This document shows, one piece after another, positions 10,039 to 12,956 of a stretch of 64,000 nucleotides of DNA (the first letter of the stretch is position 1; every line of letters starts with the position of its first letter). Where the stretch lies: the NCBI GenBank assembly GCA_947260005.1, contig CAMYOL010000056.1:29948-93947 (forward strand). Reading direction: 5' to 3'. The notes beneath the pieces were generated by a model. The model was not told the origin of the DNA. It was given only the letters and a program-made list of their open reading frames with translations, and did no database searches. This DNA is from an uncultured Ectothiorhodospiraceae bacterium. Lineage in GTDB: Bacteria; Pseudomonadota; Gammaproteobacteria; UBA6429; Thiohalophilaceae. The position numbers and the translations under genes are program-made.

Positions 10039-11226
10039 TCATATCAAGCTTAACCCACGCCCCAGGTCGTTTTGCAGATCATTAACGTTTTCGAGTCCAA
10101 CTGATACGCGAATCAAACCTGCTTTAATACCTGCCTGTTCTTTCTCTTCATCCGTCAATCTCCCGTGAGTAGTTGTTGCTGGATGAGTGATGGTACTTTT
10201 TGCATCTCCAAGGTTAGCGGTGATTGATAATAATTTTGTATTATCAATAATCTTCCATGCCGCATCCTTTCCACCATCGACCTCAAACGACAAGACCCCA
10301 CCAAAAGCCGATTGCTGTTCTCTGGCCAAAAGATGCTGAGAATGTTCAGGCAATCCAGGATAATGGACTCGGCTCACCTTAGTATGATCCTGTAAAAATA
10401 CCGCCAACTGTAATGCTTTGGCACTGTGATGCTGCATACGAATTGAAAGCGTCTCCAATCCCGTTAAAAATAACCAGGCATTGAACGCGCTCATGCTCGG
10501 TCCTGCGGTACGCAAAAAACCAAACACCTCTTCACCGACAATTTTACTGTCACCCACAACGGCCCCGCCCATTGCCCGTCCCTGACCATCGATATATTTG
10601 GTCGCTGAATGGATAACCACATCTGCACCAAATTCTAATGGACGTTGTAGCGCAGGTGTACAAAAACAATTATCAACCACCAATAAACAGTCATGCTTAT
10701 GCGCTAAATTGGCCAATGCTTTTATATCCGCAACTTCAATCAATGGGTTAGATGGCGTTTCAAGAAACAAAATTTTAGTATTCGGTTTAATTGCCTGTTG
10801 CCAGCTATCTAAATCCGTTTGTGATGCATAACTCGTTTCGATACCGTAGCGGCTTAAATATTTATTAAATAACACCACGGTTGAACCGAAAATACTTTGC
10901 GACGACACAATATGATCACCCGATTGCAATAATGCTAAACAAGTCGACAATATTGCAGACATTCCACTTGCTGTGGCAACACACGAATCACCGCCCTCTA
11001 ATGCCGCTAAACGTTGTTCAAAGGTACGTACAGTTGGATTAGTAAAGCGAGAATATATATTTCCCGGTTGATCACCTTTGAATCGTGCTTCTGCTTCGGC
11101 CGCACTGCCAAAAACATAACTTGACGTCATGAAAATTGGATCGGAATGCTCCCCTTCTGGAGAACGTTGTTGTCCCGCTCGAATTGCAAGCGTTTCGATA
11201 TCCCAGTCCTGATCATTCATAGCCAT
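10039..11226 (-). CDS. metZ: O-succinylhomoserine sulfhydrylase
   Basis: MetZ is a PLP enzyme that makes homocysteine from O-succinylhomoserine and sulfide, the direct sulfhydrylation route to methionine. The 395-residue protein shows the Cys/Met metabolism PLP-family signatures: YSRFTNPTVRTFEQRLAAL, SGMSAI, FLETPSNPLIEV and the PLP lysine near residue 210 in HSATKYIDGQGRAMGG. Two ATGs lie six bases apart (11226 and 11220). The second is better spaced from the AGGA, so it may be the true start. The roughly 205-base leader carries a SAM-II riboswitch and a terminator, so expression should fall when SAM is plentiful. The order purF-metZ is shared with pseudomonads. Confidence 0.96.
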   Translation of the reverse strand: MAMNDQDWDIETLAIRAGQQRSPEGEHSDPIFMTSSYVFGSAAEAEARFKGDQPGNIYSRFTNPTVRTFEQRLAALEGGDSCVATASGMSAILSTCLALLQSGDHIVSSQSIFGSTVVLFNKYLSRYGIETSYASQTDLDSWQQAIKPNTKILFLETPSNPLIEVADIKALANLAHKHDCLLVVDNCFCTPALQRPLEFGADVVIHSATKYIDGQGRAMGGAVVGDSKIVGEEVFGFLRTAGPSMSAFNAWLFLTGLETLSIRMQHHSAKALQLAVFLQDHTKVSRVHYPGLPEHSQHLLAREQQSAFGGVLSFEVDGGKDAAWKIIDNTKLLSITANLGDAKSTITHPATTTHGRLTDEEKEQAGIKAGLIRVSVGLENVNDLQNDLGRGLSLI

Positions 11227-11289
11227 AATCCTTTCACAATTAATTTTTATCTTTCAGTTATACTTACGCGTGCCTCAACTTTGGGACAC

Positions 11290-11317
11290 AAAAAAACCCA
11301 CTCAGCGTTCGCTAAAG
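11290..11317 (-). terminator. Rho-independent terminator of the metZ leader
   Basis: On the minus strand CTTTAGCG, loop AA, CGCTGAG and a short GUGGG lead into seven Ts (11290-11296). The stem uses AGCG/CGCT plus U-G and U-A pairs. Its 5' arm (11311-11317, CTTTAGC in the RNA sense) is exactly complementary to GCTAAAG at 11331-11337 inside the SAM-II aptamer. That gives a plausible antiterminator when SAM is absent. The mutually exclusive pairing is inferred from complementarity alone. Confidence 0.75.
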
Positions 11318-11325
11318 CAGGCTTT

Positions 11326-11381
11326 CGTCTCTTTAGCAGAATTTATTTAGCGCCCGCAAGCTGATTTCAAATCGGCGCTTT
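11326..11381 (-). ncRNA. SAM-II riboswitch aptamer upstream of metZ
   Basis: Read on the minus strand, the leader contains the conserved SAM-II blocks in order: GCGC, then GATTT, then TTGC followed by GCGC closing stem P1, then ATAAAT and GCTAAAG forming the 3' pseudoknot strand. Spacing of all blocks agrees with the known class. SAM-II aptamers bind S-adenosylmethionine and repress methionine genes; here the downstream gene is metZ. Known members lie mostly in alphaproteobacteria and usually mask the ribosome binding site. Here the aptamer is followed within about ten bases by a terminator. Confidence 0.9.
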
Positions 11382-11432
11382 ATGTATTTGTGCTAAATAG
11401 ATTAGGCGATGAGCAATAATCTGTCAACCAGT

Positions 11433-12956
11433 TTAAGCTGAATTATACAACTCGACCACTTCACCATCACTACCTTGTCCATCATTATTACGTGCCGAAT
11501 CATTACGCGCATCTTCAATACTCTTCAAATATTCCTTGGTTACATCACCGGTAATGTATTCACCATTAAAGACGGAAGTATCAAATCGCTCAACTTTTGA
11601 TTTGGATTTTTTCTTCACCGCTTCTTCCAGGTCAGTTAAATCTTGATAGATTAACCAGTCAGCGCCTATGAGTTCTGCAATTTGTTCTGCGTTACGATTG
11701 TGTCCAATCAATTCATCGGCAGCTGGCATATCGATTCCATATACATTTGGAAATTGAATCGGAGGAGCGGCTGAAGCAAAATAGACTTTTTTTGCACCGG
11801 CATCACGCGCCATCTGAATAATCTGTTGAGAGGTTGTCCCGCGTACGATCGAGTCATCAACTAACAAAACATTTTTACCCTTAAACTCCAGACCAATCGG
11901 ATTTAATTTTTGTCGTACCGATTTCTTACGCTGTTTTTGACCCGGCATAATAAAAGTCCGACCGATATAACGGTTTTTAATAAAACCTTCGCTATAGCGA
12001 ATACCAAGATGATAAGCCAGCGATAATGCAGATGTGCGGCTGGTGTCCGGGATGGGTAACACAACATCAATGTCATGATCCGGATAAGTACGTTTTATTT
12101 TTTGGGCAAGATATTCCCCCATACGCAACCGGGCTTTGTAAACGGAAATACCATCCATCACTGAATCAGGTCGCGCAAAGTAGACATGCTCAAAAATACA
12201 CGGTGAATATTGTGTTTTTTCAGCACATTGCTGGGTTTGCATGTTTCCATTGATATCCAGATAAACCGCTTCACCGGGTTCGATATCTCGTAATAAATCA
12301 TAACCTAATGCATCAACTGCGACACTCTCAGAGGCAATCATAAATTCATCCTTGCCGTCTACCGTTCGTTTACCAATCACCGCAGGACGTATTCCGTTAG
12401 GATCTCTAAAAGCAACGATGCCTCGTCCGACAATCAACGCAACCACCGCATAAGCACCACGACAACGTTTATGTACCGCCTCAACTGCAGCAAAGATATC
12501 TTCCGGTTCCAGGTTCAAATTACCCTGCACTCGGGTCTGGAGCTCATGTGCAAAGATATTTAATAAAACTTCAGAGTCAGAATTGGTGTTGATATGACGT
12601 TGGTCAGTTTCGAAAAGCTCACGTTTAAGTTCTTCGGCATTTGTTAAGTTGCCATTATGACCAAGCGCAATACCAAATGGTGAATTCACGTAAAACGGTT
12701 GTGACTCTGCAGATGAAAAACAACCCGCTGTCGGATAACGAGTGTGGCCTATGCCCATGTTGCCATAAAGGCGCAGCATATGCCTGGTATGAAAAACGTC
12801 GCGGACCAAACCATTGCTTTTGCGTAAATACATACGATCGGAATCACATGTCATAATACCAGCGGCATCCTGTCCACGGTGTTGTAATACGGTCAAACCA
12901 TCGTACAAGGCTTGATTTACTGCACTATTTGAAACGATACCTATGATGCCACACAT
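11433..12956 (-). CDS. purF: Amidophosphoribosyltransferase
   Basis: PurF makes 5-phosphoribosylamine from PRPP and glutamine, the first committed step of purine synthesis. The 507-residue protein begins MCGIIGIV, so Cys2 becomes the N-terminal glutaminase nucleophile after Met removal. The class II amidotransferase domain includes [18 protein letters not shown] and ALGHNGNL. The phosphoribosyltransferase domain contains the PRPP loop [17 protein letters not shown]. No iron-sulfur Cys pattern is seen, as in the E. coli type. It lies 66 bases downstream of cvpA, the classical cvpA-purF pair, and its transcript may run on toward the metZ leader. Confidence 0.98.

Follow-up and report, generated by a model that had tools for sequence, protein, structure and literature searches.

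How can metZ be controlled in a gammaproteobacterial genome in which, as in 95 relatives, a search for MetJ found no match (0 of 96 genomes, with a positive Escherichia coli control)? The question is raised by a 64,000-nt stretch of DNA from an uncultured Ectothiorhodospiraceae bacterium (hereafter the window), which carries on its minus strand the gene for O-succinylhomoserine sulfhydrylase, metZ, downstream of purF. We propose that a SAM-II riboswitch in the metZ leader serves as a transcriptional OFF switch for this gene, a well-supported prediction to which we assign a probability of about 0.9. Such a switch would explain how metZ can be controlled without MetJ.

Organization of the metZ leader

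The elements of the proposed switch are collected in Table 1. Read along the minus strand, TTGACA, TAATCT, GCGCC, GATTT, TTGC, GGCGC, GCTAAAG, a CTTTAGC hairpin and a run of seven T follow one another in this order. A first-pass annotation of the locus had listed an ordered set of SAM-II blocks, a hairpin with a seven-T run, and metZ as the target; the blocks are all present in the order that it gave, the hairpin is where it was described, and the metZ product scores above the cut-off for its family. The bounds then given to the feature (11287-11432) are better replaced by about 11392 to 11290, with the promoter at 11427-11399 in addition.

A Shine-Dalgarno-like AAAGGA at 11234-11229 lies 2 nt from the first ATG of metZ and 8 nt from the second, at 11220. 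Because of this spacing, with which the start codons of close relatives agree, the second ATG is likely to be the true start of the gene.

Table 1. Features of the purF-metZ region, in window coordinates.
Feature	Positions	Strand	Basis or remark
purF	11433..12956	minus	upstream gene, ends just before promoter; context only, outside the switch
Putative sigma-70 promoter (TTGACA 11427-11422, 17-nt spacer, TAATCT 11404-11399)	11399..11427	minus	9/12 score
SAM-II aptamer core	11331..11379	minus	RF00521 match and P1 covariation
P1 helix	11379-11374 paired with 11354-11349	minus	
GCGCC	11378-11374	minus	
GATTT	11373-11369	minus	
TTGC	11359-11356	minus	
GGCGC	11354-11350	minus	
ATAAAT block, within GCTAAATAAATTCT	between GGCGC and GCTAAAG	minus	
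GCTAAAG, aptamer tail	11337-11331	minus	3′ strand of P2 pseudoknot
Predicted antiterminator, UGCUAAAG (11338-11331) pairing with CUUUAGCG (11317-11310)	11310..11338	minus	conserved complement and folding
Intrinsic terminator, GCCUGCUUUAGC / GCUGAGUGGGU hairpin followed by U7 (11296-11290)	11290..11322	minus	-11.7 kcal/mol (hairpin folded alone)
CTTTAGC, in terminator 5′ arm	11317-11311	minus	
GCTGAGTGGG, terminator 3′ arm	11306-11297	minus	
TTTTTTT	11296-11290	minus	
metZ, O-succinylhomoserine sulfhydrylase	10039..11226	minus	687.7 bits against a cut-off of 522

The leader contains a SAM-II aptamer

The SAM_alpha covariance model (RF00521), proposed as a check by the first-pass annotation, aligns over its full length with 11388-11312 (33.5 bits; E 3.8e-6 for the 271 bases searched), and the metZ leader is its sole match in the 3.7-Mb genome (E 1.3e-5). 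This score falls below the Rfam gathering score of 36 bits, and a default Rfam scan of the window hence listed only tRNA and not SAM_alpha. The gathering cut-off is a conservative reporting limit and does not correspond to any structural feature. The homologous leaders of three genomes of the same genus, which precede metZ genes with 83-90% protein identity, reach 38.8-39.5 bits and pass the cut-off, so the lower score of the window's copy is no argument against its membership in the family. In relatives, too, SAM-II precedes metZ (protein identity about 68-90%). The model for the long-loop form of SAM-II (RF01726) gave only 14.2 bits for the metZ leader.

The core blocks and helices point the same way. 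The window has a single SAM-II core with a five-pair P1, and 60 shuffled windows contain none. P1 pairs 1-5 are formed without exception in a set of 78 distinct aptamers drawn from beta- and gammaproteobacteria and a few alphaproteobacteria; pairs 2 to 5 show compensatory changes (the pair types include CG/GC/TA, GC/CG, CG/TA and GC/CG/AT), and the sixth pair varies. The ligand-pocket blocks GAUUU, UUGC and GCUAA are present in SAM-II order and spacing, and the tail GCTAAAG is conserved in 78 of 80 leaders. The P2 pairing UUGC/GC-AA can form; its strands are near-invariant and therefore show no covariation, nor could they. We consider the identity of the aptamer as SAM-II, which the first-pass annotation had put forward, to be settled at the level of sequence, and from its membership in the family we infer that the leader would bind SAM.

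The one structural difference observed from the Rfam consensus concerns the P2b extension. It comprises only about 2 pairs in the metZ leader, and among 113 beta/gamma members 102 have 1-3 pairs (standard register), against 4 pairs in the consensus (GGCC/GGCC) and in the one alphaproteobacterial type examined. This short P2b is probably part of the reason for the low SAM_alpha scores of beta/gamma members.

The terminator 5′ arm complements the aptamer tail

GCTAAAG in the aptamer tail and CTTTAGC in the terminator are exact reverse complements, as had been noted at first pass. A bulged U breaks the terminator stem and may explain why a generic scan for consensus promoters and terminators did not list the hairpin; the promoter upstream of the metZ leader was likewise not listed. 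When the aptamer was masked in folding, the terminator reached -15.9 kcal/mol, with part of the U run then paired.

The complementarity is widespread among homologous leaders. A T-tract hairpin follows the aptamer in 71 of 80 distinct leaders, and in 60 of these 71 its 5′ arm is able to pair with the whole of GCUAAAG (G-U pairs allowed), while the 3′ arm pairs with at least six of the seven bases in none; permuted heptamers reached at least six pairs in 12%. The fraction of 60 in 71 is slightly low, as the automatic terminator finder settled on an incorrect hairpin in L004, L015 and L038. Pairing with the whole heptamer was found for 75 of the 115 SAM-II terminators of a wider leader set (65%), against 8 of 400 ordinary terminators (2%) taken as background from the same loci. 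The leaders are kin by descent, so that the counts are not those of independent events.

Covariation between GCTAAAG and CTTTAGC, which the first-pass annotation had suggested as a check, was a poorly posed one: the tail is part of the SAM pocket and nearly invariant, so covariation is of no use here. The informative test is instead the persistence of the complement in the terminator arm, and persist it does.

In a plain terminator, both arms would be expected to vary equally. Past the first two stem positions, column entropy is about 0.4-1.3 bits in the 5′ arm and 0.6-1.95 bits in the 3′ arm, and among 67 anchored terminators the 5′ arm CCTGCTTTAGC alone accounts for 23, whereas the 3′ arms take 52 forms. 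This lower variability points to a second partner that constrains the 5′ arm. In three leaders (L038, L042 and L131), UUUAG is kept in the terminator loop, where it is idle, and a CUUUAGC hairpin arm also follows the aptamer in leaders of other contexts, metK included. The combination of a conserved 5′ arm with a freer 3′ arm provides a signature of terminator switches that can be read from sequence alone and could be used elsewhere.

Predicted promoter and folding during transcription

The best promoter score upstream of the metZ leader, 9 of 12 consensus matches, belongs to the putative sigma-70 site of Table 1. Sites of at least 9/12 are found in 83% of the scored homologous upstream regions, compared with 6% of shuffles; in the homologous promoters the -10 element mostly starts 17-25 nt before GATTT, and the nearest relatives carry TTGACA-17-TAATCT or a close variant at a similar place. 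On the basis of this comparison with homologous upstream regions, the promoter is predicted to lie at 11427-11399, and transcription is expected to start near 11392. The same promoter arrangement was noted for the original SAM-II set (Corbino 2005, PMC1273637).

In transcripts folded from about 11392, the predicted antiterminator reaches a mean pair probability of 0.98 once the RNA extends to 11304 and remains at 0.95 with the end at 11300, falling to 0.03 at 11296, where the terminator is complete. Across 59 leaders, the window's included, the antiterminator exceeds 0.5 before the terminator 3′ arm is made in 57, and the terminator exceeds 0.5 in the full-length fold in 46. At equilibrium without SAM, the full-length leader of the window gives 0.91-0.99 for the terminator and near 0 for the antiterminator. 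Because equilibrium favours the terminator, switching would have to be kinetic and to take place during transcription, as is usual for terminator riboswitches. Compared with shuffles, the region from purF to metZ is not of unusual stability (z -0.39). In its lowest-energy structure the tail is paired with UUUAGCA further upstream (11397-11391); this pairing appears only in transcripts that start upstream of 11392 and was set aside, since these bases lie mostly before the inferred transcription start.

The following order of events is predicted. Transcription would begin near 11392 from the leader's own promoter, and the decision would depend on whether SAM has already captured GCUAAAG in the P2 pseudoknot when the terminator is being made. 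At low SAM, the free tail would pair with CUUUAGC once the latter has been transcribed, and the resulting antiterminator would occupy the terminator 5′ arm, allowing the polymerase to read into metZ. At high SAM, the tail would be locked in the P2 pseudoknot, leaving CUUUAGC free to pair with the following GCUGAG; transcription would then stop in the U7 run, and a riboswitch RNA of about 100 nt would remain. As a prediction, the terminator/antiterminator logic of the first-pass annotation is thus upheld by the complementary arms and by folding.

Alternative readings of the hairpin and aptamer

Since the hairpin is located between purF and metZ and is preferred in the full-length fold whatever the aptamer does, it might simply terminate purF or act as a constitutive attenuator, with the aptamer working separately, for example on translation or RNA stability. 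We regard this as improbable, given that a CUUUAGC arm also follows the aptamer in other contexts such as metK, that ordinary terminators of the same loci carry the complement in 2% of cases, and that the 5′ arm is better conserved than the 3′ arm, with UUUAG being kept even in the terminator loop of the three leaders named above. The promoter, moreover, is placed downstream of the purF stop codon. Even less probable is a translational switch in which the aptamer masks the metZ ribosome binding site: the Shine-Dalgarno sequence lies about 100 nt past the aptamer and 55 nt past the U run, and there is no ribosome site within the P2 tail, although some SAM-II aptamers do act in this way, for example that from the Sargasso Sea (PMC9373788).

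That the element is a degenerate or chance look-alike of SAM-II, devoid of function, is very improbable indeed. The score below the Rfam gathering score could be taken in its favour, but the core blocks are all intact, P1 is maintained by compensatory changes, the element keeps its place before metZ in relatives down to about 68% protein identity, and the shuffled windows yielded no match.

Distribution of terminator-coupled SAM-II elements

Of 370 genomes sampled from the class, to which the taxonomy used assigns the betaproteobacteria as well, 120 contain a SAM_alpha match at E <= 0.001, and 34 of these have one above the Rfam cut-off. With only about a quarter of the matching genomes above it, annotation at the cut-off would miss most beta/gamma copies of SAM-II; better recovery would need a beta/gamma SAM_alpha seed with a short P2b. 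In a Burkholderiales sample, 55 of 120 genomes match. The genes that follow SAM-II in gamma loci are nearly all metZ or metK. In Burkholderiales they include metX (14 loci) and metZ, by gene names assigned from BLAST clusters and from translated sequences. We consider it likely that terminator-coupled SAM-II with a short P2b is a main regulator of methionine genes (metZ, metX and metK) in MetJ-less beta- and gammaproteobacteria, under-recognised because most copies score below the Rfam cut-off, and that it is the same as the metXZ element discussed below.

Several further elements were observed in these genomes. In ten leaders of relatives, SAM-II and a terminator precede metK, the SAM synthetase gene; in these, the aptamer tail (GCUAAAGCGG) often recurs in the terminator 3′ arm, and tail and 3′ arm would then compete for the same CCGCUUUAG. 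The metK gene of the window's own genome is without SAM-II, and a SAH riboswitch (57.8 bits; G000:C58:40341-41680, L215 and L216) is located in that genome downstream of metK, about 130 bases past the point where the metK match ends. Leader L207, and possibly L197, has a second SAM-II-like core behind the first, and one genome (G383) contains five SAM-II matches. The 14 Burkholderiales metX loci, and two Methylophilaceae loci in which SAM-II precedes metZ (L077 and L078), probably represent the metXZ element of Leyn 2014.

Comparison with known systems

SAM-II switches that act on transcription have precedents. Corbino 2005 (PMC1273637) reported that many SAM-II aptamers are followed by terminators, with OFF-switch logic, and noted a few occurrences outside the alphaproteobacteria. 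Barrick and Breaker 2007 (PMC2258182) found SAM-II sporadically in gammaproteobacteria and, in alpha- and betaproteobacteria, mostly together with regulatory terminators. The first-pass annotation was therefore wrong to regard concealment of the ribosome binding site as the usual action of SAM-II; the transcriptional SAM-II switch in a gammaproteobacterium that it had proposed is supported, but not as a surprise, both its mode and its host group having been known.

The closest counterpart is the metZ SAM-II switch of Sinorhizobium meliloti, likewise predicted to terminate transcription (Scheuer 2022, PMC9373788), which shares with the element described here the aptamer architecture, the metZ target, a terminator after the aptamer and the predicted SAM-dependent termination that would yield an RNA of ~100 nt. 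The present element is set apart from RF00521 and from the S. meliloti switch by its lower model score and its gammaproteobacterial host, and from the Rfam consensus by its short P2b. SAM-V and the SAM-II/SAM-V tandems (PMC2704228, PMC9481103) contain a related pseudoknot, and in the tandems a terminator stands behind the SAM-II part, as here (PMC9481103); unlike them, the metZ leader has no SAM-V match and presents a single aptamer with a single platform.

A further parallel is provided by Leyn 2014 (PMC4239095), which reports SAM_alpha only in Rhizobiales and Rhodobacterales and describes, in front of metX or metZ of betaproteobacteria, a pseudoknotted "metXZ" element followed by a terminator. 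As characterized there, the element resembles the SAM-II leaders in its pseudoknotted conserved blocks, its terminator, its proposed antiterminator and its metX/metZ targets; it was published as novel, and no connection with SAM-II was made. Given this coincidence of genes, taxa and architecture, and SAM_alpha matches before Burkholderiales metX and metZ, the betaproteobacterial metXZ element is probably SAM-II, which would offer a simple identity for an element listed as novel in 2014.
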